This document shows, piece after piece, positions 37,859 through 56,265 of a stretch of 64,000 nt of DNA. The notes under the pieces are model-generated. The model was not told the origin of the DNA and did not search any database. It was given only the letters and a program-made list of their open reading frames with translations. Both the position numbers and the translations under genes were made by a program. Source of the DNA: Alistipes sp. (GTDB lineage Bacteria; Bacteroidota; Bacteroidia; Bacteroidales; Rikenellaceae); NCBI GenBank assembly GCA_017483225.1, contig JAFULF010000009.1, forward strand, positions 34,812 to 98,811, written 5' to 3'. How positions within the stretch are numbered: position 1 is the stretch's first letter; each line of letters starts with the position of its first letter.

Positions 37859-37962
37859 ACAAAAAAATTACTACGAAATTCAACACAGAAAATAAATCTA
37901 CTGTCTGATTAAGATTTTACAACTCCTTTATTACAATTATTGATATTATTCAAAAAAAATTA

Positions 37963-37970
37963 TAATTTTG
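37963..37970 (+). promoter_or_regulatory. -7 box TAATTTTG for the structured leader
   Basis: TAATTTTG, with a TTG at about 37939-37941, 21 bases upstream. The transcript would begin near 37975, just before the first hairpin of the leader RNA. Confidence 0.55.
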
Positions 37971-37974
37971 TGGT

Positions 37975-38230
37975 GCTGAATGCCCTCTTGGGCATAAAGC
38001 GAACATATAGAAAGTGTTTTCGCAGTCCTTAATCGAAAATGTGGAAGTTTTCAGTACAAGAGGACAGACAGACAACACTCATTCTGGTATATATGCAGTT
38101 TGGTGTACCCACACCACTCCTCGCATATTGCTGGTGTGGGGTATTGCGTCGTTTATTCTTGTACAGGTCTTTCCACAACCTTCGATTAGATAGACGAAAT
38201 CAACTCCACACTTTCTTATTTTAGTAACGC
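37975..38230 (+). ncRNA. Structured leader RNA, copy 1 (upstream of CD225-DUF2752)
   Basis: The 435-base gap 37833-38267 holds this element. A small hairpin TGCCC-TCTT-GGGCA (37981-37994) comes first. A closed domain follows: outer stem GAAAGTGT (38010-38017) with ACACTTTC (38208-38215), then TGTGGAA (38040-38046) with TTCCACA (38171-38177), then GTACAAG (38054-38060) with CTTGTAC (38158-38164). In the apical part ACACCA (38111-38116) can pair with TGGTGT at 38101-38106, or CCCACACCA with TGGTGTGGG at 38132-38140, two exclusive hairpins. Copy 2 is at 55988-56230 with the same blocks and compensatory stem changes. It may belong with the DUF805-type Bacteroidetes leader motifs, but I cannot verify that. 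Confidence 0.7.
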
Positions 38231-38267
38231 TCGTTTGGAGTTGGCGAACAAAACAAACAGATTTATC

Positions 38268-53301: not shown

Positions 53302-55710
53302 TTATCTGGTATTTCCTTCAACAGTAAATTCTGCCGTCTTGATTTTGGTAAATATAGTACCCGTTGGGTCACATCCAAATACACATATAACAATATCATT
53401 TCCTGGCAAGAATGGACCGAGTCTTATCGTTTTATACCCTCTATTCAGACTCAAATCTCCGCTCTCTTTAAGCGCAGCTATCTGACTATTGACAAACTCT
53501 TCCGCTGAGGAGTATTTACTATATTCACTCTTTTCGATGGCGAGTGGCAGGTATGTTGTATTACTGCTTTCTGGACTAAAATCGAAATATACGAGTCCGG
53601 ACGTATCATCATAATACGATTGAGCAATGCTACACTCGAAATCTACTGTCAAATCCTCACCGAAGTCGTATCCTTGAATATAATCTGCGTATTCAGGCCA
53701 ATACCAATCATCTGCATTTTTATAACTATAAACAGCTACATCAGGCACATATATAATGCGTGAATAGAAATTATCGGAGAATATACCAGAGTCAATATTA
53801 GGCACCACAACGCTTCTAATAAATACCGAAGAGAGGTTGGAACAATTCTCGAATACACATCCACCAATCTCTCTAATATTCTTGCTTATTGTCACTGACA
53901 GCATAGATTTACACCAACCGAATGCATAATAACCTATCTCAACAACACTATCCGGAATGACTACACTCTCCAAATTAACACAATTACTAAATGCATAGGC
54001 GCTAATCTCAACAACGCTATCCGGAATGGTGATACTCTCCAATGTTCTATTATTAGAAAAAGCACTGTATCCAATCACAGATATTGTATTAGGAATATCA
54101 TAGTGTGTGAGTCCTGCTCCGGCAAAAGCATATAGGGTATCACCCAAAACTATGCAATGGTGGTCTTCTGATGCCATATGTCCGTAGAATGCCGCCAATT
54201 TAGGACAATCAGAAACAAATGGCGTCTCACAAGACAGTTCTTCAATTCCGCTACCAATAGTAATACTTTCAAGACTCTCACATTCAGTAAAGACCTGGCT
54301 TCCTAATGTCGTAACAGAATCCGGAATAACAAACGAAGTAAATCCAGTGCCCGCAAAAGCACTATTTTCAATTGTTGTGACGCTGTTAGGTATTACAATC
54401 TCTGTCAAAGAACGACACCAACCAAACAAGCCCGATGTAATCGTTTCAACTCCCTCCGGAATAGCTATCTTTCTCAGACTAACGCAACATTCAAATACAT
54501 CCGAGTCGATTCTTTTAAGGGTCAAAGGGAGTGTAACGTGTGTCAGATTGTTGCAATAAGAGAAAGCTCCCGTTGCAATAAAGACAATTCCTTCCGGGAG
54601 TTTTATGCTATACAGATTATGACTACTCTCCTCGTCATAATTGGCATACGCCCAACTTGGCACAACAGATATATCTCCATCGAAAGTCAGACGACCAACA
54701 CCATTTTCGTAGGTATTGGATATGAGTTTTGCGCCAAAACCGTATGGCTCTGTGGGAGCAAGGATATTTCCATCGACCGTCTGATATAGAATCTCATTGG
54801 AAGCACAAGGAATGTTTGCCAGAGGGCTATCTCCCTCCTCTGCAAACTCAAACTCGACAGAGAGTGCTGCCATTGGCTGTATAGAGTTGCGCTCAATCAC
54901 GATTTTACTACTTGTTGTTTGCTCAAAAGTCTCTCCATTGGTTGCAGTAACCACGATAGTAATACCCTTGGAGAAGGTAACTTGTGGTAAAACAAACCAA
55001 AATTCGGTGGCATCGGCAACAGATGTTCCCAACTTCACACCGCCACCACAATTGAGCGTTACGACAGAGGTTGCGTCCTGCTGCATAACGAGGGATGGAG
55101 TGTCTCCGTAGTTCATTGATACAAGTGCCGCACCGGCAATCTTCTCGTTTGCATTACCTCGCAACTCTATCTTCTGCACGCTGTCGCCATCTGCTTCCCA
55201 AAGTTTTAGCGTCAAATATCCGCACACATTCTTGAATGAGAGGAATGTGTCATTCGTGCTCTCCGTAACCGCAACCATAGTGTTGGAGTTACGACCGAAT
55301 GATTTTGAGGCGTAGCTCTGCTCGGCAGGCAGGTTGAGCATCAACTCGCCTGAGTTTGATATAGAGGCCTCGCTGTCGTATGGATAGACGGCATAGATTC
55401 TATCCAAAGCGTTGCCCGTACCGAGTTGTCCGTCGGCAACGAGCGAGAATGTACCGCTGTTATCGCCGGTCTTACCATTAAATAGGTACTTGCGATTCAA
55501 CGTATTGCCAAAGAATGCCGAAATCATATCGGCTTCGTGCCAATAGAGCTCTTTTGAGTTCGCAACATAAGTTCTGGTATCGACATCTCCATCTAATGAG
55601 GCTGTCAAATCAGGAAGGTTGTCAATAGGAGCAGCATAATCATTCTCCTCTAATGATGTACAACCGCACAGCATTGCTGCCGCTAAAAATACGTAAAAAT
55701 ATCTCTTCAT
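53302..55710 (-). CDS. BspA-like (LRR_5) surface lipoprotein with fimbrillin-like N-terminus
   Basis: 802 residues from the ATG at 55710, which gives a lipoprotein signal (MKRYFYVFLAAAMLCG then Cys); an in-frame upstream extension is not credible. An N-terminal beta domain (about 30-300: LYWHEADMISAFFGNTLN, DRIYAVYPYDSEASIS) resembles fimbrillin/Mfa2-like proteins. From about residue 400 to 640 are BspA-type leucine-rich repeats (SVTTIENSAFAGTGFTSFVI, SVVEISAYAFSNCVNLESVV) of 22-23 residues. The C-terminal part is unassigned. Surface adhesin role inferred. It lies 16 bases behind the small ORF at 55727-55939 and behind structured leader copy 2. Confidence 0.85.
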   Translation of the reverse strand: MKRYFYVFLAAAMLCGCTSLEENDYAAPIDNLPDLTASLDGDVDTRTYVANSKELYWHEADMISAFFGNTLNRKYLFNGKTGDNSGTFSLVADGQLGTGNALDRIYAVYPYDSEASISNSGELMLNLPAEQSYASKSFGRNSNTMVAVTESTNDTFLSFKNVCGYLTLKLWEADGDSVQKIELRGNANEKIAGAALVSMNYGDTPSLVMQQDATSVVTLNCGGGVKLGTSVADATEFWFVLPQVTFSKGITIVVTATNGETFEQTTSSKIVIERNSIQPMAALSVEFEFAEEGDSPLANIPCASNEILYQTVDGNILAPTEPYGFGAKLISNTYENGVGRLTFDGDISVVPSWAYANYDEESSHNLYSIKLPEGIVFIATGAFSYCNNLTHVTLPLTLKRIDSDVFECCVSLRKIAIPEGVETITSGLFGWCRSLTEIVIPNSVTTIENSAFAGTGFTSFVIPDSVTTLGSQVFTECESLESITIGSGIEELSCETPFVSDCPKLAAFYGHMASEDHHCIVLGDTLYAFAGAGLTHYDIPNTISVIGYSAFSNNRTLESITIPDSVVEISAYAFSNCVNLESVVIPDSVVEIGYYAFGWCKSMLSVTISKNIREIGGCVFENCSNLSSVFIRSVVVPNIDSGIFSDNFYSRIIYVPDVAVYSYKNADDWYWPEYADYIQGYDFGEDLTVDFECSIAQSYYDDTSGLVYFDFSPESSNTTYLPLAIEKSEYSKYSSAEEFVNSQIAALKESGDLSLNRGYKTIRLGPFLPGNDIVICVFGCDPTGTIFTKIKTAEFTVEGNTR

Positions 55711-55939: not shown

Positions 55940-55987
55940 AATAATGACACCCACCGGCTTCAAATAGGATAATTGTTGTTATTAAAA

Positions 55988-56230
55988 ACAGAAAGTGTGA
56001 AGCCGACTTTCGTATATTCGTTAAAGAGGTTGTGGTAAGACCCTGGCAGAAATAAACGATGCAAAACTTCACACCTGAATAGTATGAAGCACAGCAAAAC
56101 CATTGCCGTTGCTACATCTAAACAAGCAGTGAGCGTTGTTCGTTGCCTTCTGCTGCTGAAACTACCACATTTCTTTAACAAGACAGTGCGAAAACACTTT
56201 CAATAAATATGTATGTCGATATCACTCGAC
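55988..56230 (-). ncRNA. Structured leader RNA, copy 2 (upstream of the small ORF and BspA-like gene)
   Basis: Minus strand. A 5' hairpin ATGTCGA/TCGACAT (56213-56232) is followed by the outer stem: GAAAGTGT reads from 56201 down to 56194 and ACACTTTC from 55998 down to 55991. The second stem is TGTGGTA with TACCACA, compared with TGTGGAA/TTCCACA in copy 1. The third is GCAGAA with TTCTGC, compared with GTACAA/TTGTAC. Shared blocks include GTGTTTTCGCA, CATCGTTTATT versus CGTCGTTTATT, and GGTCTTxCCACAACCT. The remainder of 55940-56333 holds the two divergent promoters. The RNA would lead into the small ORF about 50 nt later. Confidence 0.7.
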
Positions 56231-56234
56231 ATTA

Positions 56235-56265
56235 CAAAGATAGCATCTTTTGTAGTAATCACAAA
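56235..56265 (-). promoter_or_regulatory. Promoter TTTG-N19-TATCTTTG for leader copy 2
   Basis: On the minus strand TATCTTTG lies at 56242-56235 and TTTG at 56265-56262, 19 bases apart. Transcription would start near 56231, at the first leader hairpin. Confidence 0.7.

Follow-up and report, generated by a model that had tools for sequence, protein, structure and literature searches.

A multicopy leader RNA of Alistipes and other Bacteroidales, probably an undescribed gene switch with two folds

We describe a structured RNA element that precedes unrelated genes in Alistipes and its relatives. The element has two competing shapes and contains parts that match its own promoter; it is therefore probably a hitherto undescribed gene switch. 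We regard it as a new class of leader RNA that acts in cis. It is most likely an attenuator that has two folds: we assign a probability of roughly 60% to the reading in which a 5' leader toggles between these folds, called fold A and fold T below, in the manner of an attenuator. The class is apparently undescribed, large and multicopy, occurs in common gut bacteria, and is placed before surface-protein and other genes of poorly understood control: one signal or RNA-binding factor could set an entire surface regulon. The two folds yield clear mutational predictions.

Two copies in an Alistipes contig

The window, the whole 64,000-nucleotide stretch of Alistipes sp. DNA that was analysed, contains copy A at 37940-38242 on the forward strand and copy B at 56264-55956 on the reverse strand (Table 1). 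The order of parts is the same in each: TTG, 19-20 nt, a TAnnTTTG box, a 5' hairpin, a core of about 210 nt, a T-rich tract, a 3' segment and the start codon. A -33 TTG followed by TAnnTTTG is the promoter consensus of Bacteroidetes. The first-pass annotation, made from the letters of the window, had described a structured leader at 37975..38230 that is present twice. The location stands, as do both window copies; the end has to be extended, since k' at 38237-38242 still belongs to the element, and the number is too low, as a model of the element finds nine places in the organism's own genome (1.86 Mb, 42 contigs) at E <= 2.5e-6, a count which leaves out a tenth candidate at E = 0.67.

The details given for the two copies were borne out. 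All the shared sequence blocks are present; copies A and B have the same outer stem, GAAAGTGT/ACACTTTC, the second stem reads TGTGGAA/TTCCACA in copy A and TGTGGTA/TACCACA in copy B, and the third reads GTACAAG/CTTGTAC and GCAGAA/TTCTGC, respectively. Both copies follow a TAnnTTTG box and have the 5' hairpin. The genes 3' of the two copies are unrelated, as claimed: a CD225-family gene at copy A, and at copy B a short ORF and then a BspA-type leucine-rich repeat (LRR) protein. Copy B displays a triple compensation, CTTC/GAAG/GAAG, in which k, f' and k' are altered together. The folding energy of 38010-38260 is -77.5 kcal/mol (z = -5.0), and none of 200 shuffles was as good.

Table 1 Features of the two leader copies in the window and of the genes that follow them.
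Feature	Position	Strand	Remarks
Copy A, -33 box TTG	37940..37942	+	Predicted; 20-nt spacer to TAATTTTG
Copy A, -7 box TAATTTTG	37963..37970	+	Predicted promoter
Copy A, 5' hairpin h0	37974..38000	+	Covaries in 150 copies, columns 63-64 x 80-81
Copy A, P1 5' strand GAAAGTGT	38010..38017	+	8/8 paired to P1' in 141/150 copies
Copy A, strands a (GTCCT) and b (TAATCGA)	38025..38036	+	b/b' is the top covarying helix
Copy A, TGTGGAA, loop of hairpin h1	38040..38046	+	Partner TTCCACA 38171-38177; covaries
Copy A, c strand GTACAAG	38054..38060	+	Partner 38158-38164; covaries
Copy A, R1 segment ACAACACTC	38072..38080	+	Counterpart of upstream DNA block U1 where relatives keep U1
Copy A, f' GTGTGGGG and TATTGC (R2 segment)	38134..38147	+	f' 8/8 complementary to counterpart of 38204-38211 in 147/150 copies
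Copy A, d strand	38149..38156	+	Partner d' 38190-38197
Copy A, c', hairpin h2 (loop TTCCACA), b'	38158..38188	+	Covariation
Copy A, k AACTCC	38202..38207	+	Partner k' 38237-38242, or f' via CTCC
Copy A, P1' ACACTTTC	38208..38215	+	
Copy A, T-rich tract	38212..38222	+	3' of f'/kP1' helix
Copy A, k' GGAGTT	38237..38242	+	k/k' covaries, columns 294-295 x 336-337
CD225-family gene 3' of copy A, 87 aa	38268..38531	+	PF04505, E 2.9e-21
Copy B, -33 TTG	56262-56264	-	19-nt spacer, read by eye
Copy B, -7 box TATCTTTG	56235..56242	-	Predicted promoter, read by eye
Copy B, 5' hairpin h0	56214..56231	-	
Copy B, core, P1 to P1'	55991..56201	-	f' GTGTGAAG 56067-56074; kP1' CTTCACAC 55995-56002
Copy B, T-rich tract	55984..55994	-	
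Copy B, k' GAAGCC	55956..55961	-	Pairs with GGCTTC 55999-56004, read by eye
First ORF 3' of copy B, 70 aa	55727..55939	-	Between leader and BspA gene; no Pfam family
BspA-type LRR protein, second gene 3' of copy B	53302..55710	-	PF13306, E 7.2e-66

Covarying helices and competing folds

The compensatory stem changes had been taken as the mark of a selected RNA fold, with further covarying copies in related genomes set beforehand as the test; such copies were found in many of them. Covariation was assessed in an alignment of 150 copies and 353 columns by a home-made test other than R-scape: the G statistic with average-product correction, against a null of 20 tree simulations. It returned 18 column pairs at E <= 0.10, and 17 of these lie in b/b', TGTGGAA/TTCCACA, c/c', h0 and k/k'. 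The remaining one, columns 179 x 216 (51% paired), falls in the middle domain, which is variable, and does not belong to a helix. The TGTGGAA/TTCCACA pairing co-varies elsewhere too, reading CTGACA/TGTCAG in locus L257 and TGTAGCAG/CTGCTACA in L221.

Fold A is a long rod made of P1, b/b', TGTGGAA/TTCCACA and c/c'. Among 30 diverse sequences it is 88.5% paired, with changes on both sides in 21 of 28 pairs (17.9 on average after shuffling, with 3 of 500 shuffles as high) and a covariation score of 0.56 against 0.17 for the shuffled controls (0 of 500 as high). In fold T, the 3' half pairs with itself: f' (GTGTGGGG) with k and P1' (CTCCACAC), d with d', and hairpin h2, with the U-tract directly after. 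This fold is 94.5% paired in 30 diverse sequences; f'/kP1' is paired in 240 of 240 cells and three pairs have changed on both sides, and two of five measures show no clear excess over shuffles (37/500 and 170/500). RNAalifold returned the rod from 32 close copies and fold T from the 30 diverse sequences.

A third helix, k/k', joins k to a segment located between the T-tract and the ATG, and covaries at columns 295x336 (E 0.05) and 294x337 (p 0.0008). P1, f'/kP1' and k/k' share bases, so they compete mutually. Full complementarity is kept at P1 in 141/150 copies, at f'/kP1' in 147/150 and at k/k' in 114/150, leaving 36/150 of the alignment without a full k/k'; all three are complete in 111/150. 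P1 is near-invariant within the family; in the diverse set one P1 pair has changed on both sides, in eight sequences. Of 146 copies, 143 have at least seven T among the 10 nt that follow the f' partner. When energies are calculated free of pseudoknots, the rod lies 11.9 (copy A) and 15.2 kcal/mol (copy B) below the best fold with f'/kP1'.

The element has the conserved structure and compensatory changes expected of a cis-regulatory leader RNA, and, as expected of an attenuator, alternative pairings of which one forms a stem with a U-tract behind it. The compensatory changes strongly support a selected leader fold, and they argue for two mutually exclusive predicted folds. In L415 and L416, shortened versions from another order of the same class, R1 pairs directly with f' in a hairpin (GCTCATGCC-TAT-GGCGTGGGC in L415), which suggests that fold A truly contains an R1/f' helix.

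Position before genes

A loosened pattern detects a TAnnTTTG-like box upstream of 157 of 165 copies. ORFs of at least 50 aa starting with ATG lie within 320 nt of 153 of the 160 near-complete copies, at a median distance from P1' of 56 nt (43-89 nt in 123/153). At the sequence level, the copies have both own promoter-like boxes and a near-fixed distance to start codons, as befits a cis-regulatory leader. As with the 70-aa ORF after copy B, L255 has a short Met-start frame beginning at the usual distance from the element; there are other copies in which 128-249 nt separate the element from the first ORF of at least 50 aa.

The downstream genes are mutually unrelated and often encode surface proteins (BspA-type LRR, DUF4988, BACON and others). 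Pfam analysis of 136 of the 138 proteins whose start is at most 110 nt from the element returned 91 families in all, including LRR_5 (22), DUF4988 (14), collagen repeats (10), BACON (10) and fimbrillin-like (4), and more rarely Band_7_1 (3), GYF_2 (3) and CD225 (2). A crude score assigns a hydrophobic N-terminus to 107 of 144 downstream proteins. No hint of a single ligand is apparent among the Pfam families.

We considered whether the region could encode a leader peptide or other coding sequence. The ATG of ATGTGG is present in 115/150 copies, and the frame of h2 relative to ATGTGG is 0, 2 and 1 in 42, 41 and 29 copies: the frame is unkept, and this candidate was rejected.

Distribution and copy number

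Scanning for GGTCTTNCCACAACCT returned at least 119 stretches, many of them chance occurrences and 27 of them complete copies. The taxa of the complete copies (up to L087) are Alistipes, Rikenellaceae, Bacteroidales, Bacteroidaceae and Cryptobacteroides. A model of sequence only detects the element in 101/150 genomes of the family and 12/295 of the order. A structure model built on 30 diverse sequences, whose E-values are rough, detects it in 119/150 genomes of the family and in 102/393 genomes of the order, covering 64/207 genera. In a phylum sample, the structure model matched 9 of 395 genomes: the organism's own, two more from the order, and six from the same class that belong to other orders. 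Five of these six were inspected (L415-L419): strand b and the loop-loop pairing are legible by eye, and P1 is poorer in L418.

Copy numbers from the structure model are lower bounds, since the number of candidates scored in each genome was capped. Up to about 20 matches occur in a single genome, some of them weak or antisense. Tandem pairs of structure-model matches on one strand are seen at G437:C8:72502-73057 and G219:C706:9001-9372. Two copies of the own genome, L002 (C17) and L178 (C1:108302), lie near contig ends and are followed by the same sequence of about 50 nt, GGCTTAATGGTCAAAAAGAGACC..., perhaps a repeat that broke the assembly; the examined stretch downstream of them contains no ATG ORF of at least 50 aa.

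A proposed attenuator and its alternatives

The letters themselves show the helices and that these exclude one another, and they show the promoter-like boxes, the T-tract and an ATG at near-constant distance; the competition between P1, f'/kP1' and k/k', together with the T-tract, is the anatomy of an attenuator. We propose that the leader is transcribed from the TAnnTTTG promoter, where the RNA would start. In fold A the 5' half would pair with the 3' half, leaving k free for k' near the start codon, and expression would be permitted. In fold T the stem of f' with k and P1', followed by the U-tract, would act as an intrinsic terminator. The choice of fold would decide whether RNA polymerase reads through into the gene about 56 nt on, and some ligand, protein or condition would set the balance. 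Because the rod is more stable when pseudoknots are left out, fold T would have to win kinetically, during transcription, or need a factor. Several points count against an attenuator. The terminator-like stem encloses a large structured loop, which is unusual for intrinsic terminators; to this are added the energy advantage of the rod, the two weak measures of fold T, the copies without a full k/k' and the lack of a gene theme pointing to a single ligand.

The same helices could serve translational control: a ligand or protein would bind the fold, k/k' and a hairpin around k' would hide or free the start region, and the T-tract would be structural and non-terminating, for example as a U-rich strand running along P1 in a pseudoknot. 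We regard this as possible, though we rather doubt it. The covariation of k/k' and the place of k' shortly 5' of the ATG speak for it, as does the geometry, since P1 and k/k' would make an H-type pseudoknot with a U-rich connecting strand; however, it leaves unexplained why f'/kP1', the best kept of the competing helices, sits exactly before the T-tract. A free-standing gene family is a different matter: the unit from promoter to T-tract would be a trans-acting sRNA, with the downstream gene expressed by leakage only. Multicopy sRNA families do exist in Bacteroides, FopS being one (PMC11697453), and a multicopy family with a terminator-like U-tract end resembles them. We nevertheless consider an sRNA family unlikely, as the distance to the ATG is near-constant and k/k' crosses the T-tract to reach k' beyond it, a segment that would be missing from an sRNA with its end in the T-tract. 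Many copies ahead of unrelated genes are also what a dispersed mobile repeat devoid of regulatory role would leave, but compensatory changes keep the helices across divergent sequences, placement before start codons is near-fixed, and blastn at 1e-5 matched copy A to no phage or plasmid, a result by which a phage or plasmid origin was likewise rejected; a mobile repeat is hardly credible. The attenuator with folds A and T remains our preferred reading.

Promoter-complementary blocks

Two blocks lie in the DNA at about -60 to -28 relative to a presumed start: U2, like ACAATGYCCC, and U1, like GAGTGTTGTTCG and containing the -33 TTG. Each has a complementary segment within the RNA, R2 (f' and the bases after it) for U2 and R1 for U1, and the segments stand in the order required for pairing. 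A pattern search returned a U1-like block in 95 of 157 copies. On average, 17.8 of 22 positions are pairable over 150 copies, compared to 8.0 (maximum 11.8) in slid registers, a control of 1121 random draws in which every fifth copy was scored. When segments of a copy were matched with those of other copies, none of 5000 permutations fitted as well as a copy's own segments for either block (114 copies), relatedness being still included in this comparison. A tree-based test found two significant U2/R2 pairs (p = 0.001 and 0.004) and no significant single U1/R1 pair (lowest p 0.07). We know of no precedent for a leader that is complementary to its own promoter.

Pairing is kept despite changed letters in L286 (U2 ACAGCTACTCC with GGAGTAGCTGT, U1 GAACGTTTGT with ACAAACGTTC) and in L257 (U2 ACAAGACCCC with GGGGTCTTGT). 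Both blocks are correctly placed in 11 of 22 relatives from other families, a count made without a shuffled control: L282 and L293 share the letters of the home family, and L286, L287, L290, L294, L297, L298, L300, L302 and L303 have changed ones. The other 11 have a single block, none, or misplaced runs. In the window copies the blocks are degenerate, with 13 and 12 of 22 positions pairable, and are therefore dispensable for whatever these copies do; among eight inspected copies of the own genome, one reaches 18/22 and the others 5-14.

The complementarity is without an explanation that has been found; if mediated by DNA, it would be a new route of self-regulation for an mRNA leader. The most natural reading is that RNA pairs with promoter DNA. 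We tentatively suggest, with more doubt than confidence, a two-arm guide (R1, stem-loop, R2) that would pair with its own promoter, on the non-template strand over the -33 box and further upstream, and thereby control its own initiation or keep f' off the terminator stem. The pairing may also take place inside a rare longer transcript. A rival account, which concerns the blocks and not the whole leader, is a guard against read-through in the style of IS10 fold-back: only transcripts that enter from upstream would carry the block, and these would misfold. The tolerance of wobble pairs fits such a guard, and so do the window copies, which both have divergent upstream ORFs and degenerate blocks. 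It predicts complementarity mainly where upstream transcription enters, and there is a slight, non-significant trend in that direction: with upstream direction assigned by ORF length, without annotation, at least 18 of 22 positions pair at 35/48 co-directional vs 42/63 divergent loci (p = 0.17), at 29/41 vs 33/53 in a stricter subset (p = 0.14), and a cruder version gave p = 0.98. Retention of the blocks behind upstream ORFs of either orientation speaks against a guard of this kind, which we think rather improbable.

Other accounts of the blocks were rejected. A protein that recognises identical sequence in DNA and RNA does not fit the mismatches, of which 285 are wobble pairs, 56 non-wobble transitions and 78 transversions. 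An invertible promoter switch, with U1 and R1 as inverted repeats, found no place among five inspected partial matches: three of these are antisense matches of the element to itself, one is truncated and one has diverged. A second promoter 5' of the blocks was discarded as the conserved sequence beyond U1 shows T-tracts and no TAnnTTTG, although single loci (e.g. L286) may differ. The 11 genomes examined for trans targets of the guide segments have 23 U-pattern sites; an intact copy follows 21 of them and an internally deleted copy one more, and the last coincides with a start codon by chance.

Some 19-32 nt 5' of U1, the 95 aligned copies have two T-tracts that are spaced by about 10 bp, resemble an UP element and form the outer edge of conservation; base conservation ends about 32 nt 5' of U1. 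An internally deleted copy at L313 (~1500-1900) has lost most of the core, keeps the promoter boxes, the U blocks, P1 and k/k', and still precedes a lipoprotein-like ORF.

Relation to known RNAs

At the gathering score, Rfam 15 has no family over the element in the window or in three batches of at most 20 sources, some repeated; the matches in the scanned loci are tRNAs and one DUF805b RNA, all outside the element. For the window copies, E-values of up to 10 yielded chance-level matches only, with none to DUF805 or DUF805b. The tie to DUF805-type motifs that the first-pass annotation had offered with reserve is not supported, as no covariance-model match lies over the element in the window or in the relatives' loci that were scanned. 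The element and DUF805/DUF805b (RF02914, clan CL00115) are alike in being cis-regulatory RNAs of Bacteroidetes, the host group of the DUF805 RNAs, but DUF805b is a single hairpin of 35 nt. With the 224 motifs reportedly presented by Weinberg in 2017, the element was compared through Rfam alone.

The element shares with attenuators and riboswitch-type leaders its place as a 5' leader before a presumed regulated gene, the exclusive pairings and the stem with a U-tract. It differs from them in its large fold with crossing helices, its promoter complementarity, and its occurrence before unrelated genes in each genome instead of one pathway. IS10 fold-back inhibition involves a segment upstream of the promoter that is complementary to the leader, and the element has such a segment as well; unlike in the IS10 type, the blocks are not retained significantly more often behind upstream ORFs of one orientation. 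With the FopS and GibS sRNAs of Bacteroides thetaiotaomicron it shares a multicopy RNA family, canonical promoters and the Bacteroidales. PMC11697453 describes FopS as having a single-stranded 5' stretch and one terminator hairpin and as acting in trans on SusC-type mRNAs; in contrast to such free-standing RNAs with an unstructured seed and one hairpin, the element has a folded core of about 210 nt and an ATG about 56 nt on.

The HMP2 candidate structured RNAs (PMC8040213) comprise computationally found leader RNAs, including some of Bacteroidetes; the parts consulted give an Alistipes example, a 49-bp element before L20, and nothing with the size or context of our element. No description of the element was found in the main text, as far as consulted, of open-access papers including PMC8040213, PMC11697453, PMC9723704 and PMC7366714. 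The DUF805b RNA among the scanned loci is at L388:2642-2676, 0.9 kb 3' of a copy of the element; the first ORF precedes it, and another ORF on the same strand follows closely. Both cis-RNAs seem to belong to one operon.
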